Positions 16,583 to 42,473 of a DNA stretch of 64,000 nt are shown here, piece after piece. The position numbers and the translations under genes are program-made. The stretch's first letter is position 1. Every line of letters begins with the position of its first letter. The notes beneath the pieces are model-generated. The model saw only the letters and a list, made by a program, of their open reading frames with translations. It did not search any database and was not told the origin of the DNA. The stretch comes from Haematobia irritans (Eukaryota; Arthropoda; Insecta; Diptera; Muscidae). The stretch covers positions 41,804,671 to 41,868,670 of the forward strand of contig NC_134399.1 of assembly GCF_050003625.1 (NCBI RefSeq), read 5' to 3'.

Positions 16583-17704
16583 AATAAAAATTAATTAATT
16601 TAATTTTCTCGATTTTAAAAGAGTTAATATATTATAAAAGTTAATGTGATAAAATTATTTTTAATAATATATTAGAAATGAAATGTTATTCGTTTTTAAA
16701 GGTATCTAGTTCTTTAAGAAATAAATTTAATTTAGAAATTTTATATTATTTAATTAGTTAAATTAATTAAATAAATATTTAATTTTAATATTTTACGGGA
16801 TAAGCTGTAAAATAAATTTTTAAAAATATTTAAATAAAATAATAAATATAGATTTAGAAATAGTTATTATTAATAAAAGTGTTATAATTTATTTTATAAA
16901 TTAAATTATTTATTTAAATTTTAAATTTTTATTAAAGTTTTAATTTTAATTAAAAAAATTAAATAATAATGATAAAATTAGTATATATTATTGTATAAAT
17001 AAATAAATATGAAAAGTTTATATAAAGAACTCGGCAAAATAATGTTCGCCTGTTTAACAAAAACATGTCTTTTTGAATTATATTTAAAGTCTAACCTGCC
17101 CACTGAAATTTTTAAATGGCCGCAGTATCCTAACTGTGCAAAGGTAGCATAATCATTAGTCTTTTAATTGAAGGCTGGTATGAATGGTTGGACGAGATAT
17201 TAACTGTTTCATATAAATTTATAATAGAATTTTATTTTTTAGTCAAAAAGCTAAAATTTATTTAAAAGACGAGAAGACCCTATAAATCTTTATATTTAAA
17301 ATATTATATTTTTTTAGAATTATTTTAATATAATATTTAATAATATTTTATTGGGGTGATATTAAAATTTAATAAACTTTTAATTATTGAAATCATTAAT
17401 TTATGAATAATTGATCCGTTATTAACGATTAAAAATTTAAGTTACTTTAGGGATAACAGCGTAATTTTTTTGGAGAGTTCATATCGATAAAAAAGATTGC
17501 GACCTCGATGTTGGATTAAGAAATATGTTTAGGTGTAGCAGCTTAAATAATAAGTCTGTTCGACTTTTAAATTCTTACATGATCTGAGTTCAAACCGGCG
17601 TAAGCCAGGTTGGTTTCTATCTTTAAAAAATTAAAATATTTCAGTACGAAAGGACCTAATATTTGATAAATAATTATTTTAAAATTGAATATTATTAATA
17701 TTAT
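16583..17704 (+). rRNA. rrnL: NUMT copy of 16S rRNA, pass A, 5'-truncated
   Basis: This nuclear copy lacks the first ~203 bases of rrnL (compare 34960-35162) because the junction lies inside the gene. It contains the conserved large-subunit core: GACGAGAAGACCCTATA at 17267, GGGATAACAGCGTAAT near 17450, and CAGTACGAAAGGACC near 17642. It is not expected to give functional rRNA from the nucleus. Confidence 0.9.
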
Positions 17705-17769
17705 ACTATTTTGGCAGATTAGTGCAATAAATTTAGAATTTATTTATGTAATTTTTATTACAAATAGTA
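17705..17769 (+). tRNA. trnL1: NUMT copy of mitochondrial tRNA-Leu(CUN)
   Basis: Acceptor arms ACTATTT/AAATAGT and anticodon TAG lie between rrnL and nad1, the normal dipteran position. A nuclear copy, intact by eye. Confidence 0.85.
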
Positions 17770-17770
17770 C

Positions 17771-18718
17771 ATGTTTTTTATAGAAAATCTAATATTTATT
17801 ATTGGTAGATTATTATTAATTATTTTTGTTTTAGTAAGAGTAGCTTTTTTAACATTATTAGAACGAAAAGTTTTAGGTTATATCCAAATTCGTAAGGGTC
17901 CTAATAAAGTTGGAATTATAGGAATTCCTCAACCTTTTTGTGGTGCAATTAAATTATTTACTAAGGAACAAACTTATCCTTTATTATCTAATTATATTTC
18001 TTATTATTTTTCTCCTATTTTTTCTTTATTTTTGTCTTTATTAGTTTGAATATGTATACCTATATTTATTAAATTATTTTCTTTTAATTTAGGATTATTA
18101 TTTTTTTTATGTTGTACAAGTTTAGGTGTTTATACTGTTATAATTGCGGGATGATCTTCTAATTCAAATTATGCATTATTGGGTGGATTACGAGCTGTTG
18201 CTCAAACTATTTCTTATGAAGTTAGATTAGCTTTAGTTTTATTGAGTTTTATTTTTTTAATTGGAGGTTATAATATATTAATATTTTATAAATATCAAAT
18301 ATTTATTTGATTTTTATTTATTATATTTCCTATAGCATTAGTTTGATTTAGAATTTCTTTAGCTGAAACTAATCGAACTCCTTTTGATTTTGCCGAAGGG
18401 GAATCTGAATTAGTATCTGGATTTAATGTAGAATATAGAAGAGGAGGATTTGCTTTAATTTTTTTAGCTGAATATGCAAGTATTTTATTTATAAGAATAT
18501 TATTTTGTGTAATATTTTTAGGAAGAGATGTATTTTCTTTTATATTTTATATTAAATTAACTTTTGTTTCTTTTATATTTATTTGAGTTCGTGGAACTTT
18601 ACCTCGATTTCGATATGATAAATTAATGTATTTAGCATGAAAAAGTTTTTTACCTTTTTCATTAAATTTTTTATTATTTTTTGTAGGTTTTAAAATTTTT
18701 TTATTATATTTATTATAG
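17771..18718 (+). pseudogene. nad1: NUMT nad1, pass A
   Basis: A 315-codon frame from ATG to TAG is open only in the invertebrate mitochondrial code; in the standard code it stops at the first TGA (Trp), near 18048. The product would be complex I subunit 1; [20 protein letters not shown] marks the first conserved loop. This pass reads FCGAIKLF where pass B and functional homologues have Asp (FCDAIKLF), a missense change suggesting relaxed selection in the nucleus. Confidence 0.9.
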
Positions 18719-18737
18719 TGAATATTTTTTAGTAAAT

Positions 18738-18805
18738 AAGTTAATAGAAAATTTAATTTCTATCTTATGTTTTCAAAACATATGCTTAATTCAAGCTCAT
18801 TAACT
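18738..18805 (-). tRNA. trnS2: NUMT copy of mitochondrial tRNA-Ser(UCN)
   Basis: The minus strand reads AGTTAATGAGCTTGAATTAA at the 5' end and has anticodon TGA. It sits between nad1 and cob as in flies. Confidence 0.85.
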
Positions 18806-18807
18806 AA

Positions 18808-19944
18808 TTAATTTAATAAATTATCTCATCATTTTGTAACTAAAGGATTAATTATAAAATAAGCAAAATAAACTACTGTTAAAATTTGTCCAACAATTAC
18901 GTATGGAGTTTCAACAGGTCGTGCTCCAATTCATGTTAATAAAATAACTGTTACTACTATTAATCAAAATATAATTTTATTAATAGGGTAAAATTGAATT
19001 CCTCGGAATTTACTTAAATGATAAAATGGTAAAATTGCTAAAATTGCAATAGAAAGAACTAAAGCAATTACTCCACCTAATTTATTAGGAATAGATCGAA
19101 GAATAGCATAAGCAAATAAGAAATATCATTCAGGTTGAATATGAACTGGTGTAACTAAAGGATTAGCTGGAATAAAATTATCAGGATCTCCTAATAAATT
19201 TGGACTAATTAGTACTAATAAAATTAAAATTATTGTTATAATAATAAATCCTACAATATCCTTATAAGTAAAATAAGGGTGGAATGGAATTTTGTCAATA
19301 TTAGAGTTTAATCCAATAGGATTGTTTGATCCTGTTTCATGTAAAAATAATAAATGAATTATTGTTATAGCTAGTACAATAAAAGGTAAAATAAAATGAA
19401 AAGTAAAGAATCGAGTTAAAGTTGCATTATCAACAGCAAATCCTCCTCAAACTCATTGAACTAAATCAATTCCTAAATAAGGAACTGCTGATAATAAATT
19501 AGTAATTACAGTAGCTCCTCAAAATGATATTTGACCTCAAGGTAAAACATAACCTATAAAAGCAGTTCCTATTACTAAAAATAAAATAATTACTCCTACT
19601 AATCATGTTGGAGTATATAAATATGATCCATAATATATTCCTCGACCTACATGTAAATAAATACAAATAAAGAAAAATGATGCACCATTAGCATGTAATG
19701 TTCGTAATAATCATCCATAATTTACATCTCGACAAATGTGATTTACTCTATTAAAAGCTAAATTAATATCTGCAGTATAGTGTATTGCAAGAAATAATCC
19801 TGTTAAAATTTGGATAATTAAACATAATCCTAAAAGAGATCCAAAATTTCATCATGATGAAATATTACTTGGAGCTGGTAAATCTACTAATGCATTATTA
19901 GCAATTCTTAAAATTGGATGTTTAAGTCGTAAAGGTTTGTTCAT
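18808..19944 (-). pseudogene. cob: NUMT cytochrome b
   Basis: The 378-codon frame runs from ATG (MNKPLR) to TAA in the mitochondrial code. [16 protein letters not shown] near the N-terminus identifies the cytochrome b subunit of complex III. Family-typical length. Present only once: pass B keeps just its last ~18 codons because of the 1883 bp deletion. It overlaps the nad6 stop by one base, as in the organelle. Confidence 0.9.
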
Positions 19945-20468
19945 TAGTTAAATATTGGTCGAAGAGGTCCCTTAAATAAATTAGTAATTTTAACTACAGC
20001 AATTAAAGTAATTAATAGGTAATTTATTAATAAAATTGTTAATAAATTAGTAGGGTAATTATATAATTTATTTAATGATAATGAATTTTCTATAATGTAT
20101 GAATTTAAGTTTGAAATTGATTGAGTTTCAATTCTGAAATATTGTATTAATAAATTTTTATCTATAAAATATAATCTTAAAATTATTAATATAAAAATAG
20201 TAAATGAAATTAATATTAATTTAATTGAGAAAGAAAATATTTCATTTGATGCTAATGATGTAACATAAATAAATAAAACTAATATTCCTCCAAGGAATAC
20301 TAGAAATAAAATATATGAAAATCAAAATCTTTTAGATATTAATCCTGTTGTTATTGATACTAAAATAGTTTGAATTAATAAAATTAAACCTATAGCTAAA
20401 GGATGTTTAATATTTATAAAAACTAAATTAAAAATAAATATAATAGTTAATAAAATTCATTGTATAAT
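19944..20468 (-). pseudogene. nad6: NUMT nad6
   Basis: The frame from ATT (20468) to TAA is 525 bp, the usual fly length. YILFLVFLGGMLVLFIYVTS is the conserved membrane segment of complex I subunit 6. Single copy here; deleted from pass B. Confidence 0.88.
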
Positions 20469-20470
20469 AT

Positions 20471-20535
20471 CAAGAAGTAGTTTAAATAAAATATTAATTT
20501 TGGAGATTAATGATAAAGAATTTCTTTTTTCTTGA
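20471..20535 (+). tRNA. trnP: NUMT copy of mitochondrial tRNA-Pro
   Basis: The acceptor stem CAAGAA pairs with TTCTTG and the anticodon is TGG. Directly adjacent to the opposite-strand trnT, as in flies. Confidence 0.85.
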
Positions 20536-20600
20536 AGTTTTAAAAGAATTTATCTTATTTTTGATTTACAAGACCAATGTTTTTATTAAACTATTAAAAC
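20536..20600 (-). tRNA. trnT: NUMT copy of mitochondrial tRNA-Thr
   Basis: The minus strand starts GTTTTAATAGTTTAATAAAA and has anticodon TGT. Lies two bases before nad4L on the other strand. Confidence 0.85.
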
Positions 20601-20602
20601 TA

Positions 20603-20899
20603 ATGTTAATAATTTTAAATTGAAGTTTACCTAGAATTTTATTTATTATAGGAGTTTTTACTTTTGTATCAAATCGAAAGCATTTATTATCAATATTATT
20701 AAGTTTAGAATATATTGTTTTAAGATTATTTTTTTTATTATTTATTTATTTAAATATATATAATTATGAAAATTTTTTTAGAATAATATTTTTAACTTTT
20801 AGAGTTTGTGAAGGTGCATTAGGTCTTTCAATTTTAGTTTCAATAATTCGAACACATGGAAATGATTATTTTCAAAGATTTAATATTTTACAATGTTAA
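20603..20899 (+). pseudogene. nad4L: NUMT nad4L, pass A
   Basis: The frame from ATG to TAA is 297 bp and open in the mitochondrial code. The product would be complex I subunit 4L, a small three-helix membrane protein; [10 protein letters not shown] is visible. It overlaps nad4 by seven bases (ATGTTAA), the standard organelle arrangement. Confidence 0.9.
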
Positions 20900-22231
20900 A
20901 AATTATATTTATAATTATTTTTTTATTTCCATTATGTTTTATAAAAAACTTATATTGAATGGTTCAAAATTTTTTATTTTTAATTAGATTTATTTTTATT
21001 TTAATAAATATATATTCTAATTATTTTATATCTATTTCATATTTATTTGGTATAGATATAATTTCTTATGGATTAATTTTATTGAGTTTATGAATTGTTG
21101 CTTTAATAATAATAGCAAGTGAATCAATTTATAAATATAATAATTATACTAATTTATTTATATTTAATATAATTATATTATTAATTTTATTAGTTTTAAC
21201 TTTTAGAAGAATAAGATTATTTATATTTTATTTATTTTTTGAAAGTAGTTTAATTCCAACTTTATTTTTAATTTTAGGATGAGGTTATCAACCTGAACGT
21301 TTACAAGCTGGGGTTTATTTATTATTTTATACTTTATTAGTTTCTTTACCTATATTAATTGGGATTTTTTATTTATATAAAATTACTAATACAATAAATT
21401 TTTATTTATTAAATAATTATATATTTAATTATGAAATTTTATATTTTTCTTTAGTTATAGCTTTTTTAGTAAAAATACAAATATTTTTAGTTCATTTATG
21501 ATTACCAAAGGCTCATGTAGAAGCTCCTGTTTCTGGTTCAATAATTTTAGCTGGAATTATATTAAAGTTAGGGGGTTATGGGTTATTACGAGTATTTCCA
21601 TTTTTACAACTATTAGGATTAAAATTTAATTATATTTGAATTAGAATTAGATTAGTAGGAGGGGTTTTAGTAAGTTTAACTTGTTTATGTCAAACTGATT
21701 TAAAGGCTTTAATTGCTTATTCTTCAGTTGCTCATATAGGAATTGTATTAGCAGGTTTAATAACAATAACTTATATAGGTTTATGTGGTTCTTATACTTT
21801 AATAATTGCTCATGGATTATGTTCATCAGGTTTATTTTGTTTGGCAAATATTACTTATGAACGAATAGGAAGACGAAGTTTATTAATTAATAAGGGATTA
21901 TTAAATTTTATACCTTCTATAGCTTTATGATGATTTTTATTAAGATCTGCAAATATAGCTGCTCCTCCTACATTAAATTTATTAGGAGAAATTTCTTTAA
22001 TTAATAGAATTATAAGATGATCTTGATTAACTATATTTATATTATCTTTATTATCATTTTTTAGAGCTGCTTATACTTTATATTTATATGCTTATAGTCA
22101 ACATGGAAAGTTATTTTCTGGAACTTATTCATTTAGAGGAGGTAAAATTCGTGAATATTTATTATTATTTTTACATTGATTTCCTTTAAATTTATTAATT
22201 ATAAAAAGAGATATATGTATATTATGATTAT
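20893..22231 (+). pseudogene. nad4: NUMT nad4, pass A
   Basis: The frame begins ATG inside nad4L and ends with a single T before trnH, which in the organelle is completed to TAA by polyadenylation. [16 protein letters not shown] is the conserved complex I subunit 4 block. Just before it, this pass reads VKMQM where pass B reads EKMPM; the usual sequence is VKMPM, so each pass has its own missense change. Confidence 0.9.
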
Positions 22232-22295
22232 ATTTAAATAGTTTAATAAAAATATTGATTTGTGGTGTCAATGATAAGAGAATTTCTTTTTAAAT
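22232..22295 (+). tRNA. trnH: NUMT copy of mitochondrial tRNA-His, pass A
   Basis: Acceptor ATTTAAA/TTTAAAT, anticodon GTG. Pass B differs by one base just after the anticodon arm (GTCAAT versus GTCTAT). Confidence 0.85.
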
Positions 22296-22296
22296 C

Positions 22297-24031
22297 GTGA
22301 AATATTTATCAATTTGTTCAATTAGATTTGTTTCTTTATTTTTTTTTAGAATTTTATCTTTTTCAATAGGTTTAATTTTTATTATAAATGATTATAGAAT
22401 TTTTATTGAATGAGAAGTAGTTTCAATAAATTCAATAATAATTGTTATAACTATTTTATTAGATTGAATAAGATTAATTTTTATATCTTTTGTTTTAATA
22501 ATTTCTTCTTTAGTTATTTATTATAGAAAGGAATATATAGAAAGTGATTATAAAATTAATCGTTTTATTATATTAGTATTAATATTTGTTACATCTATAA
22601 TATTATTAATTATTAGACCAAATTTAATTAGTATTTTATTAGGATGAGATGGATTAGGATTAGTATCTTATTGTTTAGTAATTTATTTTCAAAATATTAA
22701 GTCTTATAATGCTGGAATATTAACGGCTCTATCAAATCGAATTGGGGATGTAGCTTTATTATTGGCAATTGCTTGAATATTAAATTATGGAAGATGAAAT
22801 TATATTTTTTATTTAGAAGTAATAAATTCTAATATAGAAATAATAATTGTTGGTGGTTTAGTAATATTAGCTGCAATAACTAAAAGAGCTCAAATTCCAT
22901 TTTCTTCTTGATTACCAGCTGCTATAGCTGCTCCAACTCCTGTTTCTGCTTTAGTGCATTCTTCGACTTTAGTAACAGCAGGAGTATATTTATTAATTCG
23001 TTTTAATATTTTATTAGCTAATTCTTGATTAGGAAATTTATTATTATTATTATCTGGATTAACAATATTTATAGCTGGATTAGGAGCTAATTATGAATTT
23101 GATTTAAAAAAAATTATTGCTTTATCTACTTTAAGTCAATTAGGATTAATAATAAGAATTTTATCTATAGGATTTTATAAATTAGCTTTTTTTCATTTAT
23201 TAACTCATGCTTTATTTAAAGCTTTATTATTTATATGTGCTGGAGCAATTATTCATAATATAAATAATACACAAGATATTCGTTTAATAGGAAGATTAAG
23301 TTTAATAATACCTTTAACTTCTTCTTGTTTTAATGTAGCTAATTTAGCTTTATGTGGAATACCATTTTTAGCAGGATTTTATTCTAAGGATTTAATTTTA
23401 GAAATAGTATCTTTTTCTTATATTAATATATTTTCATTTTTTTTATATTTTTTTTCAACTGGTTTAACAGTATGTTATTCTTTTCGTTTAGTTTATTATA
23501 CAATAACTGGGGATTCAAATTTTTCTTCTTTAAATATACTTAACGATGAAGCTTGAGTTATATTAAAAAGTATAATAGGATTATTAATTTTAAGAATTTT
23601 TGGTGGAAGAATACTTAGATGATTAATTTTTCCAACTCCTGCTGTAATTATTTTACCTAAATCTTTAAAATTATTAACATTATTTGTTTGTATTGTTGGA
23701 GGGTTAGTAGGTTACTTAATTTCAAATGTTTCTTTATTTTTTTATAATAAGGCTTTAAATAATTATAATTCTTCTTATTTTTTAGGTTCAATATGATTTA
23801 TACCTTATATTTCGACTTATGGAATTATTAATTATCCTTTATTAGTAGGTAAATTAAGTATTAAAACTTTTGATCAAGGTTGATCTGAATATTTTGGTGG
23901 TCAACAACTTTATTATAATTTAATTAAAAATTCTCAATTTAATCAAATATTACAAAATAATAATTTAAAAATTTATTTATTATGTTTTGTTTTTTGAATT
24001 ATTATTTTATATATGTATATAATTTGTTTTT
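22297..24031 (+). pseudogene. nad5: NUMT nad5, pass A
   Basis: The frame starts at GTG right after trnH (VKYLSICSISFVSLFFF) and ends with an incomplete stop T before trnF: 1735 bp. [19 protein letters not shown] marks the conserved proton-pumping subunit 5 core of complex I. The stretches I translated are open in the mitochondrial code. Confidence 0.9.
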
Positions 24032-24096
24032 ATTCAAATAGCTTATATTTAGAGTATGACACTGAAGATGTTAGGGAGATTAATTAATCTTTGAAT
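24032..24096 (+). tRNA. trnF: NUMT copy of mitochondrial tRNA-Phe
   Basis: ATTCAAATAGCTTATATTTA opens the 5' half; the anticodon is GAA and the acceptor pairs with TTTGAAT. Confidence 0.85.
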
Positions 24097-24115
24097 ATAG
24101 TGAATTTTTTTTAGT

Positions 24116-24182
24116 AATTTATAAAATAAATATATTTATTTTTACAATGAAAATGTAATGTTTTATATTAAACTATATAAAT
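24116..24182 (-). tRNA. trnE: NUMT copy of mitochondrial tRNA-Glu
   Basis: The minus strand has acceptor ATTTATA/TATAAAT and anticodon TTC. First of the five-tRNA block E-S1-N-R-A. Confidence 0.85.
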
Positions 24183-24183
24183 T

Positions 24184-24251
24184 AGAAGTATAAATGGAAT
24201 TTAACCATTAAAAGAAAAAAGTTAGCAGCTTTTACTTGAACATCATACTTC
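24184..24251 (-). tRNA. trnS1: NUMT copy of mitochondrial tRNA-Ser(AGN)
   Basis: The minus strand reads AAGTATGATGTTCAAGTAAA then an AGCTGCT anticodon region. The D arm is reduced, as usual for this tRNA. Confidence 0.8.
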
Positions 24252-24317
24252 TTTAATTGGAGGATAATTCTCAATTCTATCATTAACAGTGATAAGCCTC
24301 TTTTTGGCTTCAATTAA
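24252..24317 (-). tRNA. trnN: NUMT copy of mitochondrial tRNA-Asn
   Basis: The minus strand has acceptor TTAATTG/CAATTAA and anticodon GTT. Confidence 0.85.
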
Positions 24318-24324
24318 TATAAAA

Positions 24325-24389
24325 AAAGAATAAGGGTAATGATACCTAAAATTAGGTCGAAACTAATTGCAATAAATCGCTTCATATTC
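24325..24389 (-). tRNA. trnR: NUMT copy of mitochondrial tRNA-Arg
   Basis: The minus strand begins GAATATGAAGCGATTTATTG and has anticodon TCG. Confidence 0.85.
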
Positions 24390-24453
24390 AAGGTAGATTG
24401 ATAAATCAATACTTTTTGAATGCAAATCAAATGTTATAATTAACTACAACCCT
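24389..24453 (-). tRNA. trnA: NUMT copy of mitochondrial tRNA-Ala
   Basis: The minus strand begins AGGGTTGTAGTTAATTATAA and has anticodon TGC. It abuts nad3. Confidence 0.85.
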
Positions 24454-24805
24454 AATTTGATCAGTTTAATATTCCTTGATTTCATTCATGGTATAATCCT
24501 AAAAGTAAAATTAAAATAAAAATAATTGAAGTGATTGTTCAGGTTAATAAATTTGAAAATTTAATAATTAAAATAATTGGTAAAATTAGTGCAATTTCAA
24601 CATCAAAAATTAAGAAAATAATTGTAATTAAAAAAAATCGTAAAGAAAAGGGAATACGAGAAGATGATTTAGGATCAAATCCACACTCAAAAGGTGAAGC
24701 TTTTTCTCGATCAACAATCGTTTTTTTTGAAAGAATTGAGGCAAGAATTATTACAATTATAGAAATTAATATAATAATAGAACTAATTGTTAAAATTGAA
24801 AAAAT
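24452..24805 (-). pseudogene. nad3: NUMT nad3, pass A
   Basis: I read the whole 117-codon frame: ATT start, TAG stop, open in the mitochondrial code. [19 protein letters not shown] is the conserved complex I subunit 3 loop. Its stop overlaps trnA, as in the organelle. Confidence 0.92.
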
Positions 24806-24806
24806 T

Positions 24807-24870
24807 ATCTATACTATTAATAATAGACCATATGATTGGAAGTCAAATATACTTTTTATACTATATAGAT
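24807..24870 (-). tRNA. trnG: NUMT copy of mitochondrial tRNA-Gly, pass A
   Basis: The minus strand has acceptor ATCTATA/TATAGAT and anticodon TCC. Intact here; the pass-B copy is split by a SINE, so this is the empty-site allele. Confidence 0.88.
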
Positions 24871-24876
24871 AATTAA

Positions 24877-25665
24877 TTAACCTCCTCATCAGTAAATTGA
24901 TACATAAAGGAATAATCAAACAATATCAACAAAATGTCAGTATCAAGCAGCTGCTTCAAATCCAAAATGATGATTTATAGAGAAATGGTTATTTAAATGA
25001 CGAATTAAACATACTAATAAAAATGTAGTTCCAATTAATACATGTAATCCATGGAAACCAGTTGCTATAAAAAATGTAGATCCATAAACTGAGTCTGCAA
25101 TAGTAAATGGAGCTTCAATATATTCATAAGCTTGTAAAATAGTGAAATAAACTCCTAATAAAACAGTGAAAAATAATCCTTGAGTAGTTTGTGAATGATT
25201 ATTTTCTATTAGACTATGATGAGCTCAAGTAACTGTAATTCCTGAAGTTAATAAAATTACTGTATTTAATAAAGGAATTTGAAATGGATTAAAAGGAGTA
25301 ATTCCTATAGGAGGTCATATAGCTCCTAATTCAATAGATGGGGATAAACTTCTATGAAAAAAAGCTCAAAAAAATGAAACAAAAAATAATACTTCTGAAA
25401 GAATAAATAAAATTATTCCTCATCGTAATCCTGTAGTTACAGCTAGTGTATGAAGACCTTGGAATGTTCCTTCTCGAGATACATCTCGTCATCATTGATA
25501 TACTGTTAAAATTGTAATTAAATTACCTAATAAAAATAATGAATTATCATACTGATGAAATCATTTTACTATACCTGCAACTGTAGTTATAGCTCCAATA
25601 GATGCAGTTAATGGTCATGGACTATAATCTACTAAATGAAATGGGTGATTTGCGTGAGTTGACAT
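24877..25665 (-). pseudogene. cox3: NUMT cox3, pass A
   Basis: The 262-codon frame begins MSTHANHPFHLVDYSPWPLT and ends SIYWWGG then TAA. This would be cytochrome c oxidase subunit III. Length is typical and a seven-A run near 25360 is intact here, whereas pass B has lost one A. Confidence 0.9.
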
Positions 25666-26342
25666 TAGTTTACTTCTCTAGAATATAAAGTTCTTAATAC
25701 AACAAATACATATGATTGAATTATTGCAACAGCTGATTCTAAAACTAATAAAGCAATTTGTGTAATTAATAAAAATCCTAATAAAATTGTTGACAATGAA
25801 GGACCAGTATTACCTAATAATGTTAATAATAAATGCCCAGCAATTATATTAGCTGTTAATCGAACAGCTAAAGTTCCTGGTCGAATAATATTACTAATAG
25901 TTTCAATACATACTATAAAAGGTATTAGAACAGCAGGAGTTCCTTGTGGTACTAAATGAGCAAATATATGTTGAGTATTATTAATTCATCCAAATAATAT
26001 AAAACATAATCATAAAGGAAGAGCTAAAGTTAATGTTAATGTTAAATGACTTGTACTAGTAAAAATATATGGAAATAATCCTATAAAATTATTAAATAAA
26101 ATTATAGAAAATAAAGAAACAAAAATAAAAGTAGATCCATTAGCTCCTATTGGACCTAAAAGATTTTTGAATTCTTTGTGTAATGTTAATAAAATATTAT
26201 TTCAAAAAATATGATATCGAGAAGGTATTAATCAATATATTGAAGGAATTATTAAGATTCCTAAAAAAGTACTTAATCAATTTAATGAAAGATTAAAAAT
26301 ACTAGATGAAGGGTCAAATACAGAAAATAAATTAGTTATCAT
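25665..26342 (-). pseudogene. atp6: NUMT atp6
   Basis: The 225-codon frame starts MMTNLFSVFDPSSSIFNLS and ends TAA, overlapping the cox3 ATG by one base. It is ATP synthase subunit a. Pass B keeps only the last 26 bases. Confidence 0.9.
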
Positions 26343-32745: not shown

Positions 32746-32809
32746 AATGAATGTAATATTATTACATGATCTATCCTATCAAGATAGCCCTTTTATCAGG
32801 CAATTCATT
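32746..32809 (-). tRNA. trnI: NUMT copy of mitochondrial tRNA-Ile
   Basis: The minus strand begins AATGAATTGCCTGATAAAAG and has anticodon GAT. It borders the control region, as in flies. Confidence 0.85.
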
Positions 32810-33106: not shown

Positions 33107-33174
<68 letters not shown>

Positions 33175-34104
33175 CAAATATTAATATATAAATTATTTAT
33201 ATATTATTAAATAAATATTAATCAACATTTTAGCCTATACCTCCAATTAGATGGGTAATTAGAGTTTATAGTAATACTAGCCTTAATTGAATGGTTGTGA
33301 AATTTTTTTTTGCTCTAGATTAATAGATCCCTATTAATTAATTAAATATTTATATATATATAGATATCTATTAATCTTAATTAGTATATCGTCTTAAATT
33401 CGTAAATTGCACTCTTCAATATACTTTTTGGGACCCTTAATAAAATAATGAAAAATTATCAGTAATTTAAAAAAAAAAATTTAAAAATTTTTACAAAAAA
33501 AAATTTTTTTTTTATAAAAAAAAAAAAACTAGGTAATTTCTATGTAATTATAAATTTATTAAGATTTATAATCAATATTATTACTAAATTTAATTATTAT
33601 AATAATTATAGATAAATAAATTATAAATTTATAATATTATTATATAATATAGTTAATAAATAAATTTTTATAGGTTTATAATTATATTATATATTATTTT
33701 ATATTTATAGTATTATTTTAAATTTATACTTAATTTAATTCATTAATTTATAATTATATAGAAATAATTTTTTCAAAAAATTTTTTATTATAATATTAAA
33801 AATATAATATAAATTATATAAATTAATTTACTTTATAAAATTTTTAATGAAAATATACTTATTATAAATTAAATTGGGGATAATTTATAGTATTTATTTT
33901 AATTATATAATTATTATGTAGGGGTATATAATAATATAATTATAAATTTTTATATGTAATTTATATTGAAAAATTATTGGAGATAGTACCAATTTTTAAT
34001 TATTAAGTTTATAATTGTATTTATAATTATTTTTACTAATTATTATTATTAATTTATAATTTAATTATATTAATTTTTATAATTTATATTAATAATTAAA
34101 TTAT
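32810..34104. other. NUMT copy of the mitochondrial control region
   Basis: About 1.3 kb of extremely AT-rich sequence between trnI and rrnS, where the organelle carries its replication and transcription control. Visible blocks are an uninterrupted T run at about 32827-32847 beside trnI, a (TA)n tract at 33110-33170, mixed A/T homopolymers near 33470-33530, and poorly structured AT sequence up to rrnS. No large tandem repeats. Not duplicated in pass B. Confidence 0.85.
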
Positions 34105-34887
34105 AAAGTTTTATTTTGGCTTATTAATTTATTATTAGTTTAATTTATATGTAAATTTTTGTGAGGAATTTTATTTATTTTAATAATAAATAAATTAATT
34201 TATATTCGCAGTAATTAATTTTATTAATTAAAGAAATTTAGAAATAGTAATACTAAATAGTATTGGCTAAATTTGTGCCAGCAGCCGCGGTTATACGAAT
34301 AATGCAAATAAATTTTATCAGTAAAAGTTAAATTGTTTATTTATATAATATAATATAAATTATTAGGTGAAATTTTTGATTTATTAATTATTATATTTAA
34401 TATTAATTGAAGCTTGAAAATTTTAATAATAAACTAGGATTAGATACCCTATTATTTAAAATGTAAATATTAATGCTTAGGTAGTAATAGTTATGTTCTT
34501 GAAACTTAAAAAATTTGGCGGTATTTTAGTCTATTCAGAGGAACCTGTTCTGTAATCGATAATCCACGTTGGACCTTACTTAAGTTTGTTTAGTTTATAT
34601 ACCGTCGTTATTAGAATATTTTATAAGAATGTTAATTTTCATAATTTTATAAAAGAAAATATATCAGATCAAGGTGTAGCTTATATTTAAGTAGAAATGG
34701 GTTGCAATAAAATTATTTATATGGATTTAAATTTGAAATGTTTAATGAAAGTGGATTTGATAGTAAAATTATAAAGATTAATAATTTGATTTTAGCTCTA
34801 AAATATGTACACATCGCCCGTCACTCTTATTATTAAGATAAGATAAGTCGTAACATAGTAGATGTACTGGAAAGTGTATCTAGAATT
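34105..34887 (+). rRNA. rrnS: NUMT copy of 12S rRNA
   Basis: Starts AAAGTTTTATTTTGGCTTAT. GTGCCAGCAGCCGCGGTTAT at about 34276 and the decoding-site GTACACATCGCCCGTCAC at about 34806 are the conserved small-subunit signatures, followed by AAGTCGTAACATAGTAG. About 780 bases, full fly length. Only one copy in the window. Confidence 0.92.
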
Positions 34888-34959
34888 CAATTTAAAGCTT
34901 AATTAGTAAAGCATTTCATTTACATTGAAAAGATTTTTGTGCAAATCAATATAAATTGA
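34888..34959 (+). tRNA. trnV: NUMT copy of mitochondrial tRNA-Val
   Basis: Acceptor CAATTTA/TAAATTG, anticodon TAC, between rrnS and rrnL. Completes the set of 22 mitochondrial tRNAs. Confidence 0.88.
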
Positions 34960-36005
34960 TTAAATTTTATTTATTAATTTTTTTATTATGTAAATTATTT
35001 TATTAAAAATAATTATAAATTGTTTATTTTTAGTATTTTATAAAGAAAAAATAAAATTAATTATAGTGTATTAGTATTGTGAAAGAAAATTGAAATAATT
35101 TGAAAAATTATTATTTTAGAAGAAAATTTAATTTATTGTACCTTGTGTATCAGGGTTTATCAAATAAAAATTAATTAATTTAATTTTCTCGATTTTAAAA
35201 GAGTTAATATATTATAAAAGTTAATGTGATAAAATTATTTTTAATAATATATTAGAAATGAAATGTTATTCGTTTTTAAAGGTATCTAGTTCTTTAAGAA
35301 ATAAATTTAATTTAGAAATTTTATATTATTTAATTAGTTAAATTAATTAAATAAATATTTAATTTTAATATTTTACGGGATAAGCTGTAAAATAAATTTT
35401 TAAAAATATTTAAATAAAATAATAAATATAGATTTAGAAATAGTTATTATTAATAAAAGTGTTATAATTTATTTTATAAATTAAATTATTTATTTAAATT
35501 TTAAATTTTTATTAAAGTTTTAATTTTAATTAAAAAAATTAAATAATAATGATAAAATTTATTTAAAAGACGAGAAGACCCTATAAATCTTTATATTTAA
35601 AATATTATATTTTTTTAGAATTATTTTAATATAATATTTAATAATATTTTATTGGGGTGATATTAAAATTTAATAAACTTTTAATTATTGAAATCATTAA
35701 TTTATGAATAATTGATCCGTTATTAACGATTAAAAATTTAAGTTACTTTAGGGATAACAGCGTAATTTTTTTGGAGAGTTCATATCGATAAAAAAGATTG
35801 CGACCTCGATGTTGGATTAAGAAATATGTTTAGGTGTAGCAGCTTAAATAATAAGTCTGTTCGACTTTTAAATTCTTACATGATCTGAGTTCAAACCGGC
35901 GTAAGCCAGGTTGGTTTCTATCTTTAAAAAATTAAAATATTTCAGTACGAAAGGACCTAATATTTGATAAATAATTATTTTAAAATTGAATATTATTAAT
36001 ATTAT
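34960..36005 (+). pseudogene. rrnL: NUMT 16S rRNA, pass B, internal deletion
   Basis: This copy has the 5' end missing in pass A. It then loses the 279 bp equivalent to 16973-17251 of pass A; the join at about 35553-35559 falls on TAAAATT, which is present at both ends of the lost piece. The missing part includes CCTGCCCACTGA and AACTGTGCAAAGGTAGC of the large-subunit core, so it could not fold as rRNA. Confidence 0.92.
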
Positions 36006-36070
36006 ACTATTTTGGCAGATTAGTGCAATAAATTTAGAATTTATTTATGTAATTTTTATTACAAATAGTA
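36006..36070 (+). tRNA. trnL1: NUMT copy of tRNA-Leu(CUN), pass B
   Basis: Matches the pass-A copy by eye, including anticodon TAG. Confidence 0.85.
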
Positions 36071-36071
36071 C

Positions 36072-37019
36072 ATGTTTTTTATAGAAAATCTAATATTTAT
36101 TATTGGTAGATTATTATTAATTAGTTTTGTTTTAGTAAGAGTAGCTTTTTTAACATTATTAGAACGAAAAGTTTTAGGTTATATCCAAATTCGTAAGGGT
36201 CCTAATAAAGTTGGAATTATAGGAATTCCTCAACCTTTTTGTGATGCAATTAAATTATTTACTAAGGAACAAACTTATCCTTTATTATCTAATTATATTT
36301 CTTATTATTTTTCTCCTATTTTTTCTTTATTTTTGTCTTTATTAGTTTGAATATGTATACCTATATTTATTAAATTATTTTCTTTTAATTTAGGATTATT
36401 ATTTTTTTTATGTTGTACAATTTTAGGTGTTTATACTGTTATAATTGCGGGATGATCTTCTAATTCAAATTATGCATTATTGGGTGGATTACGAGCTGTT
36501 GCTCAAACTATTTCTTATGAAGTTAGATTAGCTTTAGTTTTATTGAGTTTTATTTTTTTAATTGGAGGTTATAATATATTAATATTTTATAAATATCAAA
36601 TATTTATTTGATTTTTATTTATTATATTTCCTATAGCATTAGTTTGATTTAGAATTTCTTTAGCTGAAACTAATCGAACTCCTTTTGATTTTGCCGAAGG
36701 GGAATCTGAATTAGTATCTGGATTTAATGTAGAATATAGAAGAGGAGGATTTGCTTTAATTTTTTTAGCTGAATATGCAAGTATTTTATTTATAAGAATA
36801 TTATTTTGTGTAATATTTTTAGGAAGAGATGTATTTTCTTTTATATTTTATATTAAATTAACTTTTGTTTCTTTTATATTTATTTGAGTTCGTGGAACTT
36901 TACCTCGATTTCGATATGATAAATTAATGTATTTAGCATGAAAAAGTTTTTTACCTTTTTCATTAAATTTTTTATTATTTTTTGTAGGTTTTAAAATTTT
37001 TTTATTATATTTATTATAG
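36072..37019 (+). pseudogene. nad1: NUMT nad1, pass B
   Basis: Second full-length copy, 315 codons in the mitochondrial code. Three differences from pass A are seen: TTAGTT for TTATTT near 36122, Asp (GAT) kept in FCDAIKLF, and Ile for Ser in the CCT(S/I)LGVYT segment near 36421, where Ser is usual. Both passes therefore carry private changes. Confidence 0.9.
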
Positions 37020-37038
37020 TGAATATTTTTTAGTAAAT

Positions 37039-37106
37039 AAGTTAATAGAAAATTTAATTTCTATCTTATGTTTTCAAAACATATGCTTAATTCAAGCTCA
37101 TTAACT
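37039..37106 (-). tRNA. trnS2: NUMT copy of tRNA-Ser(UCN), pass B
   Basis: Matches the pass-A copy by eye; anticodon TGA on the minus strand. Confidence 0.85.
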
Positions 37107-37108
37107 AA

Positions 37109-37162
37109 TTAATTTAATAAATTATCTCATCATTTTGTAACTAAAGGATTAATTATAAAATA
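37109..37162 (-). pseudogene. cob: NUMT cob 3' fragment, pass B
   Basis: Only the last ~18 codons remain (…NPLVTKWWDNLLN). At 37161-37162 the sequence jumps into nad4L: a 1883 bp deletion relative to pass A with only a TA shared at the join. Confidence 0.9.
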
Positions 37163-37317
37163 TTTATTTAAATATATATAATTATGAAAATTTTTTTAGA
37201 ATAATATTTTTAACTTTTAGAGTTTGTGAAGGTGCATTAGGTCTTTAAATTTTAGTTTCAATAATTCGAACACATGGAAATGATTATTTTCAAAGATTTA
37301 ATATTTTACAATGTTAA
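37161..37317 (+). pseudogene. nad4L: NUMT nad4L 3' fragment with nonsense codon, pass B
   Basis: The 5' half is gone through the deletion. In the rest, the TCA of pass A (GGTCTTTCAATT) is TAA here (GGTCTTTAAATT, near 37246), a stop in the mitochondrial code as well. This copy cannot encode the protein in either compartment. Confidence 0.9.
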
Positions 37318-38649
37318 AAATTATATTTATAATTATTTTTTTATTTCCATTATGTTTTATAAAAAACTTATATTGAATGGTTCAAAATTTTTTATTTTTA
37401 ATTAGATTTATTTTTATTTTAATAAATATATATTCTAATTATTTTATATCTATTTCATATTTATTTGGTATAGATATAATTTCTTATGGATTAATTTTAT
37501 TGAGTTTATGAATTGTTGCTTTAATAATAATAGCAAGTGAATCAATTTATAAATATAATAATTATACTAATTTATTTATATTTAATATAATTATATTATT
37601 AATTTTATTAGTTTTAACTTTTAGAAGAATAAGATTATTTATATTTTATTTATTTTTTGAAAGTAGTTTAATTCCAACTTTATTTTTAATTTTAGGATGA
37701 GGTTATCAACCTGAACGTTTACAAGCTGGGGTTTATTTATTATTTTATACTTTATTAGTTTCTTTACCTATATTAATTGGGATTTTTTATTTATATAAAA
37801 TTACTAATACAATAAATTTTTATTTATTAAATAATTATATATTTAATTATGAAATTTTATATTTTTCTTTAGTTATAGCTTTTTTAGAAAAAATACCAAT
37901 ATTTTTAGTTCATTTATGATTACCAAAGGCTCATGTAGAAGCTCCTGTTTCTGGTTCAATAATTTTAGCTGGAATTATATTAAAGTTAGGGGGTTATGGG
38001 TTATTACGAGTATTTCCATTTTTACAACTATTAGGATTAAAATTTAATTATATTTGAATTAGAATTAGATTAGTAGGAGGGGTTTTAGTAAGATTAACTT
38101 GTTTATGTCAAACTGATTTAAAGGCTTTAATTGCTTATTCTTCAGTTGCTCATATAGGAATTGTATTAGCAGGTTTAATAACAATAACTTATATAGGTTT
38201 ATGTGGTTCTTATACTTTAATAATTGCTCATGGATTATGTTCATCAGGTTTATTTTGTTTGGCAAATATTACTTATGAACGAATAGGAAGACGAAGTTTA
38301 TTAATTAATAAGGGATTATTAAATTTTATACCTTCTATAGCTTTATGATGATTTTTATTAAGATCTGCAAATATAGCTGCTCCTCCTACATTAAATTTAT
38401 TAGGAGAAATTTCTTTAATTAATAGAATTGTAAGATGATCTTGATTAACTATATTTATATTATCTTTATTATCACTTTTTAGAGCTGCTTATACTTTATA
38501 TTTATATGCTTATAGTCAACATGGAAAGTTATTTTCTGGAACTTATTCATTTAGAGGAGGTAAAATTCGTGAATATTTATTATTATTTTTACATTGATTT
38601 CCTTTAAATTTATTAATTATAAAAAGAGATATATGTATATTATGATTAT
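37311..38649 (+). pseudogene. nad4: NUMT nad4, pass B
   Basis: Full length, open in the stretches I translated. At least five substitutions separate it from pass A (GAAAAAATACCA for GTAAAAATACAA near 37887, GTAAGATTA near 38089, AATTGTAAG near 38427, TCACTTTTT near 38473). The first makes Val to Glu in a conserved membrane segment. Confidence 0.9.
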
Positions 38650-38713
38650 ATTTAAATAGTTTAATAAAAATATTGATTTGTGGTGTCTATGATAAGAGAA
38701 TTTCTTTTTAAAT
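38650..38713 (+). tRNA. trnH: NUMT copy of tRNA-His, pass B
   Basis: As in pass A except one base (GTCTAT for GTCAAT) beside the anticodon stem. Confidence 0.82.
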
Positions 38714-38714
38714 C

Positions 38715-40449
38715 GTGAAATATTTATCAATTTGTTCAATTAGATTTGTTTCTTTATTTTTTTTTAGAATTTTATCTTTTTCAATAGGTTTAATTTTTAT
38801 TATAAATGATTATAGAATTTTTATTGAATGAGAAGTAGTTTCAATAAATTCAATAATAATTGTTATAACTATTTTATTAGATTGAATAAGATTAATTTTT
38901 ATATCTTTTGTTTTAATAATTTCTTCTTTAGTTATTTATTATAGAAAGGAATATATAGAAAGTGATTATAAAATTAATCGTTTTATTATATTAGTATTAA
39001 TATTTGTTACATCTATAATATTATTAATTATTAGACCAAATTTAATTAGTATTTTATTAGGATGAGATGGATTAGGATTAGTATCTTATTGTTTAGTAAT
39101 TTATTTTCAAAATATTAAGTCTTATAATGCTGGAATATTAACGGCTTTATCAAATCGAATTGGGGATGTAGCTTTATTATTGGCAATTGCTTGAATATTA
39201 AATTATGGAAGATGAAATTATATTTTTTATTTAGAAGTAATAAATTCTAATATAGAAATAATAATTGTTGGTGGTTTAGTAATATTAGCTGCAATAACTA
39301 AAAGAGCTCAAATTCCATTTTCTTCTTGATTACCAGCTGCTATAGCTGCTCCAACTCCTGTTTCTGCTTTAGTGCATTCTTCGACTTTAGTAACAGCAGG
39401 AGTATATTTATTAATTCGTTTTAATATTTTATTAGCTAATTCTTGATTAGGAAATTTATTATTATTATTATCTGGATTAACAATATTTATAGCTGGATTA
39501 GGAGCTAATTATGAATTTGATTTAAAAAAAATTATTGCTTTATCTACTTTAAGTCAATTAGGATTAATAATAAGAATTTTATCTATAGGATTTTATAAAT
39601 TATCTTTTTTTCATTTATTAACTCATGCTTTATTTAAAGCTTTATTATTTATATGTGCTGGAGCAATTATTCATAATATAAATAATACACAAGATATTCG
39701 TTTAATAGGAAGATTAAGTTTAATAATACCTTTAACTTCTTCTTGTTTTAATGTAGCTAATTTAGCTTTATGTGGAATACCATTTTTAGCAGGATTTTAT
39801 TCTAAGGATTTAATTTTAGAAATAGTATCTTTTTCTTATATTAATATATTTTCATTTTTTTTATATTTTTTTTCAACTGGTTTAACAGTATGTTATTCTT
39901 TTCGTTTAGTTTATTATACAATAACTGGGGATTCAAATTTTTCTTCTTTAAATATACTTAACGATGAAGCTTGAGTTATATTAAAAAGTATAATAGGATT
40001 ATTAATTTTAAGAATTTTTGGTGGAAGAATACTTAGATGATTAATTTTTCCAACTCCTGCTGTAATTATTTTACCTAAATCTTTAAAATTATTAACATTA
40101 TTTGTTTGTATTGTTGGAGGGTTAGTAGGTTACTTAATTTCAAATGTTTCTTTATTTTTTTATAATAAGGCTTTAAATAATTATAATTCTTCTTATTTTT
40201 TAGGTTCAATATGATTTATACCTTATATTTCGACTTATGGAATTATTAATTATCCTTTATTAGTAGGTAAATTAAGTATTAAAACTTTTGATCAAGGTTG
40301 ATCTGAATATTTTGGTGGTCAACAACTTTATTATAATTTAATTAAAAATTCTCAATTTAATCAAATATTACAAAATAATAATTTAAAAATTTATTTATTA
40401 AGTTTTGTTTTTTGAATTATTATTTTATATATGTATATAATTTGTTTTT
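38715..40449 (+). pseudogene. nad5: NUMT nad5, pass B
   Basis: Full-length second copy of 1735 bp. I noted three substitutions against pass A: GGCTTTATC near 39143, AAATTATCTTT near 39597 (Ala to Ser) and TTATTAAGTTTT near 40398. No indel seen. Confidence 0.9.
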
Positions 40450-40871
40450 ATTCAAATAGCTTATATTTAGAGTATGACACTGAAGATGTTAGGGAGATTA
40501 ATTAATCTTTGAATATAGTGAATTTTTTTTAGTAATTTATAAAATAAATATATTTATTTTTACAATGAAAATGTAATGTTTTATATTAAACTATATAAAT
40601 TAGAAGTATAAATGGAATTTAACCATTAAAAGAAAAAAGTTAGCAGCTTTTACTTGAACATCATACTTCTTTAATTGGAGGATAATTCTCAATTCTATCA
40701 TTAACAGTGATAAGCCTCTTTTTGGCTTCAATTAATATAAAAAAAGAATAAGGGTAATGATACCTAAAATTAGGTCGAAACTAATTGCAATAAATCGCTT
40801 CATATTCAAGGTAGATTGATAAATCAATACTTTTTGAATGCAAATCAAATGTTATAATTAACTACAACCCT
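40450..40871. tRNA. NUMT tRNA block F-E-S1-N-R-A, pass B
   Basis: Positions by comparison with pass A: trnF 40450-40514 (+), trnE 40534-40600 (-), trnS1 40602-40669 (-), trnN 40670-40735 (-), trnR 40743-40807 (-), trnA 40807-40871 (-). No difference from pass A was noticed in this block. Confidence 0.85.
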
Positions 40872-41223
40872 AATTTGATCAGTTTAATATTCCTTGATTT
40901 CATTCATGGTATAATCCTAAAAGTAAAATTAAAATAAAAATAATTGAAGTGATTGTTCAGGTTAATAAATTTGAAAATTTAATAATTAAAATAATTGGTA
41001 AAATTAGTGCAATTTCAACATCAAAAATTAAGAAAATAATTGTAATTAAAAAAAATCGTAAAGAAAAGGGAATACGAGAAGATGATTTAGGATCAAATCC
41101 ACACTCAAAAGGTGAAGCTTTTTCTCGATCAACAATCGTTTTTTTTGAAAGAATTGAGGCAAGAATTATTACAATTATAGAAATTAATATAATAATAGAA
41201 CTAATTGTTAAAATTGAAAAAAT
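40870..41223 (-). pseudogene. nad3: NUMT nad3, pass B
   Basis: 117-codon copy that looks the same as pass A by eye. Nearly unchanged sequence supports recent common origin of the two passes. Confidence 0.9.
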
Positions 41224-41224
41224 T

Positions 41225-41654
41225 ATCTATACTATTAATAATAGGGAGCCACCGTGGTGCAATGGTTAGCATGCCCGCCTTGCATACACAAGGTCGTGGG
41301 TTCGATTCCTGCTACGACCGAACACCAAAAAGTTTTTCAGCGGTGGATTATCCCACCTCAGTAATGCTGGTGACATTTCTGAGGGTTTCAAAGCTTCTCT
41401 AAGTGGTTTCACTGGAATGTGGAACGCCGTTCGGACTCGGCTATAAAAAGGAGGTCCCTTGTCATTGAGCTTAACATGGAATCGGGCAGCACTCAGTGAT
41501 AAGAGAGAAGTTCACCACTGTGGTATCACAATGGACTGAATAGTCTAAGTGAGCTTGATACATCGGGCTGCCACATAACCTAACCTAACCTAACCTACTA
41601 TTAATAATAGACCATATGATTGGAAGTCAAATATACTTTTTATACTATATAGAT
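41225..41654 (-). pseudogene. trnG: NUMT trnG, pass B, split by a SINE
   Basis: The tRNA-Gly sequence is in two parts, 41225-41244 and 41596-41654, with the 15 bp TACTATTAATAATAG duplicated at the break. The intact version at 24807-24870 shows the site before insertion. Confidence 0.92.
41245..41595 (+). mobile_element. tRNA-derived SINE copy 2, in the NUMT
   Basis: 351 bp: tRNA-like head (GGAGCCACCGTGGTGCAATG, box B GGGTTCGATTCC), body with AGTTTTTCAGCGGTGGATTA, 3' domain TGTGGTATCACAATGGACTG, then CCTAACCTAACCTAACC. Perfect 15 bp target duplications (41230-41244 and 41596-41610). This is the cleanest full-length copy here and defines the family's ends. Conserved pol III boxes suggest a recently active source. 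Confidence 0.95.
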
Positions 41655-41660
41655 AATTAA

Positions 41661-42448
41661 TTAACCTCCTCATCAGTAAATTGATACATAAAGGAATAAT
41701 CAAACAATATCAACAAAATGTCAGTATCAAGCAGCTGCTTCAAATCCAAAATGATGATTTATAGAGAAATGGTTATTTAAATGACGAATTAAACATACTA
41801 ATAAAAATGTAGTTCCAATTAATACATGTAATCCATGGAAACCAGTTGCTATAAAAAATGTAGATCCATAAACTGAGTCTGCAATAGTAAATGGAGCTTC
41901 AATATATTCATAAGCTTGTAAAATAGTGAAATAAACTCCTAATAAAACAGTGAAAAATAATCCTTGAGTAGTTTGTGAATGATTATTTTCTATTAGACTA
42001 TGATGAGCTCAAGTAACTGTAATTCCTGAAGTTAATAAAATTACTGTATTTAATAAAGGAATTTGAAATGGATTAAAAGGAGTAATTCCTATAGGAGGTC
42101 ATATAGCTCCTAATTCAATAGATGGGGATAAACTTCTATGAAAAAAGCTCAAAAAAATGAAACAAAAAATAATACTTCTGAAAGAATAAATAAAATTATT
42201 CCTCATCGTAATCCTGTAGTTACAGCTAGTGTATGAAGACCTTGGAATGTTCCTTCTCGAGATACATCTCGTCATCATTGATATACTGTTAAAATTGTAA
42301 TTAAATTACCTAATAAAAATAATGAATTATCATACTGATGAAATCATTTTACTATACCTGCAACTGTAGTTATAGCTCCAATAGATGCAGTTAATGGTCA
42401 TGGACTATAATCTACTAAATGAAATGGGTGATTTGCGTGAGTTGACAT
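41661..42448 (-). pseudogene. cox3: NUMT cox3, pass B, frameshifted
   Basis: Same as pass A except one A lost from the seven-A run (ATGAAAAAAGC near 42139), which shifts the frame about a third of the way from the gene's start. The only indel seen between the passes apart from the two large deletions and the SINE. Confidence 0.92.
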
Positions 42449-42473
42449 TAGTTTACTTCTCTAGAATATAAAG
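42448..42473 (-). pseudogene. atp6: NUMT atp6, last 26 bases; right end of mitochondrial DNA
   Basis: Matches pass A through ATATAAAG (25665-25690) and then diverges completely, marking the right mitochondrial junction at 42473/42474. Confidence 0.9.

Follow-up and report, generated by a model that had tools for sequence, protein, structure and literature searches.

The horn fly (Haematobia irritans) locus described here raises the question of how mitochondrial DNA longer than one mitochondrial genome came to lie in nuclear DNA, and whether it was captured at that length or enlarged after insertion. Within the window, the whole 64,000-nucleotide stretch that was analysed, positions 16583-42473 of the assembled sequence constitute a mitochondrial-derived array in which the region 16583-25690 is repeated at 35163-42473. 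Self-BLAST resolved this repeat into four blocks of 397, 1,610, 4,092 and 879 bp with identities of 99.7-100%, and a chance origin is excluded because even the smallest block, of 397 bp, matches at 100%. Since the repeat has exactly these limits, both ends that an earlier note on this DNA had given for the array, 16583 and 42473, are exact. Equivalent positions of the two passes lie 18,580 bp apart, and subtraction of the net 2,470 bp of an inserted repeat element yields a mitochondrial unit of ~16,110 bp, which is close to the 16,078-bp contig of H. irritans irritans. With the 9,108 bp-equivalents spanned by the second pass, the array amounts to 1.565 turns, as against the 1.56 claimed; together with the complete tRNA order of the first pass, this bears out the view that the array exceeds one genome and is arranged head to tail. 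Nuclear repeats are present on both sides and the window contains no N, so that the array is continuous with nuclear DNA in the assembly. Derived from mtDNA, flanked by nuclear sequence in the assembly, and containing both decay and mobile elements, the array is a NUMT of the horn fly mitochondrial lineage.

Pass 1 (16583-35162, plus strand, N-strand orientation) was opened inside rrnL and carries the full mitochondrial gene set, as identified by self-BLAST, Pfam and ARAGORN. The frames tested in this pass are open under table 5. Pfam named all ten proteins tested (nine of pass 1, plus the nad1 product of pass 2), with nad6 lying 0.2 bits below the cut-off. The cob product is 100% identical to P0001, which is encoded on the 16,078-bp contig, and nad4 and nad5 show 99% identity to H. 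irritans proteins. ARAGORN in mitochondrial mode made 33 tRNA calls, 22 of which make up the expected complement, arranged as L1 S2 P T H F E S1 N R A G D K L2 Y C W M Q I V; the other 11 look spurious, being located within genes, the repeat element or AT-rich DNA. The low-GC region between trnI and trnV (32811-34886, plus strand) is assigned to the control region and rrnS with no internal boundary drawn, and what we take to be rrnS was recognised by its position and known motifs rather than by a model. Between nad2 and trnM lies a nuclear repeat element (~30127-32596, 2.47 kb) that contains tandem repeats of 153 bp; its ends match other copies in the window and are uncertain by ~10 bp, and its target duplication is perhaps TA. 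One such match is that of 32440-32603 to 6149-5986, at 100% over 164 bp.

The transition between the passes lies within trnV and rrnL (34887-36005, plus strand; Rfam, self-BLAST and ARAGORN), the Rfam match covering the later (3') part of rrnL. At the seam itself, position 35163, rrnL is continuous and shows no visible scar, and the proposal that the order runs through the control region, rrnS and trnV and re-enters rrnL without a break thus withstood inspection. With the 279 bp that pass 2 has lost added back, rrnL at the seam measures 1,324 bp from trnV to trnL1, a typical length for this gene in flies. If a single linear genome had been duplicated, breaks at exactly both its ends would have been needed to create such a seam. 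As far as the sequence tells, the seam would correspond to a circular junction without visible scar, as in a concatemeric NUMT.

Pass 2 (35163-42473, plus strand; self-BLAST) begins in rrnL and stops at the 3' end of atp6, and ARAGORN in mitochondrial mode made 11 tRNA calls there, 10 of which belong to the expected set. The description of the array as having an uninterrupted order holds for gene order only, as pass 1 is interrupted by the repeat element and pass 2 by deletions and a SINE. The first deletion removed 279 bp of rrnL and left a scar with a 7-bp microhomology at 35553-35559 (block offsets; rrnL by Rfam), the 279 bp being composed of the 272 bp between the matched blocks in pass 1 (16980-17251) and one extra copy of the 7 bp. 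The second, of 1,883 bp, begins within the 3' end of cob and reaches into nad4L, with its scar at 37153-37162 (self-BLAST, Pfam and ARAGORN); the pass 1 stretch 18862-20734, comprising most of cob, nad6, trnT, trnP and the start of nad4L, is gone from pass 2. Because of the missing stretches, the region from nad1 to cox3 is not wholly covered a second time, contrary to what the earlier note had claimed. Both deletions may be older or younger than the insertion. A reading of the missing stretches as insertions in pass 1 was rejected, since their sequence is rrnL and cob-nad6 DNA. At trnG, pass 2 carries a tRNA-headed SINE of 351 bp with a CCTAA tail (41245-41595, plus strand) and a 15-bp target duplication, TACTATTAATAATAG, for which pass 1 represents the empty site; further long copies in the window show 94.3-97.7% identity. 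Loss of these 351 bp from pass 1 was likewise rejected, as they are a SINE with a target duplication and more copies in the window. The cox3 gene of pass 2 is one A shorter owing to a 1-bp indel in an A run (25357/42141), where a sequencing error is possible.

The nuclear DNA next to the array is itself duplicated, an observation absent from the earlier note (15627-16576 and 42657-44648). The left copy, F (15627-16576, 950 bp, plus strand), was recognised by self-BLAST with the right copy, F' (42657-44648, plus strand; self-BLAST and sequence comparison). F includes a run rich in (AT)n as well as SINE-like sequence and is truncated on the right at the mitochondrial junction, whereas F' runs on into a complete SINE-like head that F does not have. 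The two copies match over 122 bp at 100% and over 530 versus 536 bp with one substitution and one 6-bp indel. F contains an imperfect inverted repeat (16356-16572) with 72-bp arms of 93% identity (BLAST, 16501-16572 versus 16427-16356), and the left junction lies 4 bp beyond the foot of this hairpin. The predicted DNA fold of 16320-16576 has an energy of -77.6 kcal/mol (z -14.45), and none of 200 shuffles was as good. Six bp (16577-16582, plus strand) separate the nuclear DNA from rrnL and are unlike both F' and the rrnL of pass 2 at the corresponding places. On the right, a 183-bp filler (42474-42656, plus strand; sequence comparison) leads from the array to F'; in the remainder of the window, no match to it at E up to 10 exceeds 35 bp. 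F' is interrupted by a DNA transposon of 1,260 bp (42853-44112) with 12-bp terminal inverted repeats, CAGTGTTGCCAA, and an 8-bp target duplication, AGAAATAG; F is its empty site, and from its hallmarks the element is presumably hAT-like. One of eight flank proteins had no Pfam match. Taken together, the flanking duplication, the 183-bp and 6-bp fillers and the hairpin resemble the scars left when breaks are repaired in an error-prone manner.

Whether the two passes existed before insertion can be judged from the changes that separate them. They differ by 13 substitutions in 6,955 compared positions (0.19%), a count from which positions 20735-20742 (eight positions with three mismatches at a deletion edge) and the 1-bp A-run indel were excluded. 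Twelve of the 13 are coding, and 10 of these 12 are non-synonymous, including one stop, where the neutral expectation for the non-synonymous share is 0.795 (about 80%). The coding differences between the passes represent decay without mitochondrial constraint. Heteroplasmic mtDNA variation as their source is disfavoured, as the non-synonymous share fits neutrality. At a nuclear rate of ~3.5e-9 per site per generation, as in Drosophila, 0.19% would amount to ~270,000 generations, a value that is indicative only. Fly mitochondrial DNA was not found in the scans of viral contigs with cox1 (5 loci) and cob (46 loci) or among the best 80 of 592 cob relatives in genome contigs, the relatives being too distant for a fly because their identities were 42-59%. 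The polarity of the changes therefore rests on the proteins of a few genes. Where the compared references agree, four changes are private to pass 1 and five to pass 2, in addition to the pass 2 stop. In columns of nad4 and nad5 that are invariant across the aligned references, three changes are private to pass 1, three to pass 2 and none is shared; nad1, compared with Drosophila, contributes one and two, respectively. All references were muscids: for nad5, 9 of the 120 listed were used, and for nad4, 8 of the 120. The nad5 comparison excluded residues past the annotated reference ends and the start-codon column, which reads I in the two passes and M in the references. Both passes depart from the H. 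irritans references at four residues, all in columns that are variable among muscids.

These counts bear directly on the choice between an inserted multimer and a later tandem duplication, the two origins that had been offered. A late origin would mean that an insert slightly longer than one genome was enlarged in the nucleus by unequal exchange. Such events have a precedent, as NUMTs that became tandemly duplicated once inserted are on record in the literature consulted (PMC2820518), and terminal redundancy would allow homologous exchange to produce a scarless seam. However, changes at invariant sites of nad4 and nad5 number three and three private against none shared, and an insert longer than one genome is still required. 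The absence of shared changes is compatible with a one-copy state for up to about half of the nuclear life (P(0)=0.05 at one half). Moreover, F and F' have diverged about as much as the passes (1 substitution in 652 aligned bp, or 0.15%, versus 0.19%), although this dating consists of one substitution, with the (AT)n and (AG)n runs, which vary in length, excluded. A multimeric origin is favoured because the seam bears no visible scar and F and F' are about as diverged as the passes. Late duplication is thereby weakened to the less likely of the two, and we regard enlargement by unequal exchange as rather unlikely.

An assembly artefact, in which the array or the F/F' pair would stem from the joining of genuine mitochondrial reads or of two haplotypes of this nuclear locus, is similarly doubtful. 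The tested frames of pass 1 are open and its cob equals the protein of the 16,078-bp contig, as expected of real mtDNA, and the transposon and the different (AT)n length in F' resemble differences between alleles. In the excerpts consulted, whole-mitogenome inserts in assemblies have been questioned before, and a 2018 H. irritans assembly is described as a short-read/PacBio hybrid with a 23-kb scaffold N50, from which the assembly of the window may differ. However, both passes have private residues in columns invariant among the aligned muscid proteins, and the array and F' hold three mobile elements, two with clear target duplications. A haplotype switch would also leave unexplained the 183-bp filler and a duplicate that ends exactly at the array junction. 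A ready-made multimer is favoured over late duplication and misassembly alike because both passes carry private changes and share none in nad4 and nad5. That separate mitochondrial fragments were ligated, all facing the same way, prior to insertion or in the course of it is very improbable: the two collinear joins in pass 2, one with a 7-bp microhomology, could be fragment joins, and organelle fragment joining appears in excerpts on plants, but all pieces are collinear in one orientation and the seam between the passes has no visible scar.

The account that we consider likely is that a mitochondrial molecule comprising more than one genome length, arranged head to tail, was captured in a single event during double-strand break repair at the nuclear hairpin. 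The order, the unscarred seam, the flanking duplication, the filler, the hairpin and the private pseudogene-like changes in both passes are directly readable in the assembly. The molecule may have been a dimer, a larger multimer or a rolling-circle product, and would have been multimeric before capture. The chromosome would have broken at the hairpin, and repair synthesis restarting upstream, by template switching or synthesis-dependent strand annealing, could have generated the 950-bp duplication and the filler. After insertion, the copies would have decayed independently, with the repeat element entering pass 1, the SINE pass 2 and the hAT-like element F'. The fuller version, in which the fly germ line already contained a ready-made multimer (e.g. 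rolling-circle or dimeric) that was taken up in a single step where a hairpin had induced a break, with repair of a replication-like kind giving rise to the 950-bp duplication and its filler, is put forward tentatively, at somewhat less than even chances.

The value of this locus is that a NUMT exceeding one genome can be read base by base, in its two passes as well as at its two junctions. The two passes serve as mutual controls, the empty sites of the SINE and of the hAT-like element are each present in the opposite copy, and private versus shared changes separate duplication before insertion from duplication after it. The array makes it possible to test whether concatemers of mtDNA get into the nucleus of the germ line; if the proposed account is true, it would be a single sequence-resolved record of such concatemers and of their route into a chromosome. 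It also calls for caution with markers in the horn fly, as the three pass 1 proteins compared are 99-100% identical to those of H. irritans and could be mistaken for real ones. Among the matches listed in open-licence PMC text, there was no paper on a horn fly NUMT and none on an insect NUMT whose array, resolved in sequence, exceeds one genome.

NUMTs longer than one mitochondrial genome are already known, and the horn fly array is an unusually readable new example. The following comparisons draw on portions of the papers cited. Human Mega-NUMTs (PMC7897518; hypothesis in PMC6563850) likewise consist of head-to-tail whole mitochondrial genomes in the nucleus and were judged to be a concatemer; they are multi-copy and were inferred from PCR and pedigree (PMC7897518), whereas the horn fly array has 1.565 turns with both junctions in sequence. 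The domestic cat Numt (cited in PMC2820518) is also tandem mitochondrial DNA in a chromosome, but with a 7.9-kb partial-genome unit in 38-76 tandem copies, as opposed to a whole-genome unit in fewer than two copies. The X-linked NUMT of Drosophila melanogaster DGRP-820 (PMC9222939) is likewise a recent fly NUMT, of more than 16.2 kb and nearly the whole mtDNA, for which its authors were unable to exclude a concatemer; it was mapped by crosses and PCR, whereas the horn fly junctions were read in the assembly. The 620-kb NUMT of Arabidopsis (cited in PMC7037861) is similarly very long and derived from partly duplicated mtDNA, but this plant insert is far larger and, unlike the horn fly array, rearranged. 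Break repair in vertebrates has been reported to leave local duplications with filler (PMC2671141), likewise accompanied by microhomology at the repaired break, organelle DNA not being the subject of that study; the 950-bp duplication and 183-bp filler of the horn fly exceed the human duplications of up to 619 bp and fillers of 1-68 bp. What is new in the horn fly is the duplicated 950-bp nuclear flank, together with the 183-bp filler and the position of the left junction next to a hairpin foot.

The mitochondrial array consists of two successive passes through the genome, pass 1 (16583-35162) and pass 2 (35163-42473), which meet at a seam inside rrnL. A self-BLAST of 15,000-45,500 revealed that 16583-25690 recurs at 35163-42473 in four blocks (397, 1,610, 4,092 and 879 bp) with 99.7-100% identity, and these blocks showed that the array ends proposed in the earlier note, 16583 and 42473, are exact. 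GC drops across most of 15-42 kb, and the window contains no N. Equivalent positions of the passes lie 18,580 bp apart, which, minus the net 2,470 bp of a repeat element in pass 1, gives a mitochondrial unit of roughly 16,110 bp, similar in length to the 16,078-bp contig listed for H. irritans irritans. Since pass 2 spans 9,108 bp-equivalents of this unit, the array amounts to 1.565 turns. ARAGORN in mitochondrial mode made 33 tRNA calls in pass 1, 22 of which form the expected set, arranged along the N strand as is usual in insects, while 11 look spurious; 10 of the 11 calls in pass 2 were expected, trnP and trnT being among the absent ones. All ten tested frames, open under table 5, matched Pfam (COX1, COX2, ATP6, COX3, ND3, ND2, ND6, ND4L, CYTB and ND1), with ND6 scoring 0.2 bits under the cut-off. 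ND5, ND4, ND1 and ND2 matched PDB entries for complex I (8b9z and others), presumably from Drosophila, in chains labelled NADH-ubiquinone oxidoreductase. Judging from three reference-protein comparisons, namely nad5 (99% to P0121 and P0122), nad4 (99% to P0241) and cob (100% to P0001), the best relatives would be Haematobia irritans.

Across 6,955 positions, the passes show 13 differences, a count that omits edge mismatches and one 1-bp indel. Ten of the 12 coding differences are non-synonymous, and one of these creates a stop in the pass 2 copy of nad4L; neutral evolution would give a non-synonymous share of 0.795, as computed on nad1, nad4 and nad5. In alignments with muscid references (9 of the 120 listed for nad5, 8 of 120 for nad4), each pass showed three private residues at reference-invariant columns of these two genes, and no changed residue at such columns was common to both passes. 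Both passes were unlike the H. irritans references in four columns, all of which vary among the references. The single nad1 reference sides once with pass 2 and twice with pass 1. Because both passes carry private changes, neither appears to resemble functional mtDNA as it stands. However, the frames of pass 1 are open in the genes tested and its cob is identical to the listed protein, which suggests a very young pass 1 or, with lower probability, a partial chimera.

Each pass is also interrupted. Pass 1 carries a nuclear repeat element between nad2 and trnM, 164 bp of which, at its right end, are identical to a copy at 5986-6149. In pass 2, rrnL has lost 279 bp at a site of 7-bp microhomology, a further 1,883 bp are missing from within the 3' end of cob to nad4L, and cox3 has one A fewer within an A run. 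At trnG, pass 2 contains a 351-bp SINE (41245-41595) flanked by 15-bp target duplications; pass 1 shows the corresponding empty site.

The window is repeat-rich, including 153-bp repeat arrays. A family with internal 153-bp tandem repeats and 29-bp arrays occurs at 4750-13355, 30786-32324, 49744-50267 and 52106-53054, and 31062-32462, within the NUMT, and 6123-7523 are inverted copies of this family (96% complementary). SINEs of one family, tRNA-headed and ending in CCTAA repeats, are found at 41245-41595, 2984-3331, 61169-61519 and 50328-50659; since the copies are 94-98% identical to the SINE of pass 2, this family was probably recently active. Seven of eight tested flank proteins had a Pfam match, five to retroelement domains (for example RVT_1, RVT_2 and endonuclease at 56.8-62.4 kb). 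Of the retroelement fragments at 56796-62379, SH3_retrovirus and RVT_2 lie on the + strand; the - strand carries RVT_1, endonuclease and RNase H.

A nuclear duplication flanks the array, its left copy F (15627-16576) recurring as F' (42657-44648) beyond a 183-bp filler (42474-42656). With an (AT)n and an (AG)n run omitted, 122 bp are identical, and 530 bp of F differ from 536 bp of F' by one substitution and one 6-bp indel. In F the AT-rich (AT)n run extends over 262 bp, compared with 26 bp in F'; a short unique piece inside this run is itself duplicated in F (15675-15984; self-BLAST matches at offset 99-195). The 1,260-bp hAT-like element in F' (42853-44112) has 12-bp terminal inverted repeats, is bounded by 8-bp target duplications and includes a 34-bp T run; F shows the corresponding empty site. 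At the mitochondrial junction F ends within a SINE-like head that extends further in F'. The old locus would therefore most simply have read left flank, F, rest of the head, right flank, and the insertion would have added 6 bp, the array, the filler and another copy of F.

The left junction lies 4 bp past an inverted repeat with 72-bp arms, and the DNA fold of 16320-16576 reaches -77.6 kcal/mol (z -14.45 versus 200 shuffles). Inverted-orientation SINE-like sequence (16323-16576) forms this strong hairpin directly at the NUMT junction. Most likely, a mitochondrial multimer would have filled a break at the hairpin, in which the hairpin itself may have played a part, and repair synthesis would have copied a short template and then restarted about 950 bp upstream.

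Had a single linear genome been duplicated later, the seam would be scarred unless the two breakpoints coincided with the ends of the insert. No scar is visible at the seam between the passes, and rrnL would measure 1,324 bp across it if the lost 279 bp are included. Zero shared versus six private changes has a P of 0.05 if half of the nuclear time was single-copy, and of 0.28 if three tenths were; the lack of shared changes thus sets a real but loose bound on single-copy time. F and F' diverge by 1/652, like the passes, as expected if all arose in one event, although one substitution makes a weak clock.

In human DNA, a local duplication with filler marks synthesis-dependent repair, with duplications of up to 619 bp and fillers of up to 68 bp (PMC2671141); compared with these, both the duplication and the filler of the horn fly array are larger. 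Among the best-ranked matches in the open-licence PMC literature we found no horn fly case of such a NUMT. Tandem arrays and near-whole or longer inserts are already known: the tandem array of the cat (cited in PMC2820518), human Mega-NUMTs (PMC7897518, PMC6563850), the 620-kb insert of Arabidopsis (cited in PMC7037861) and a near-complete NUMT on the Drosophila X (PMC9222939). The horn fly array belongs among these tandem or over-length NUMTs, and its anatomy is unusually readable.
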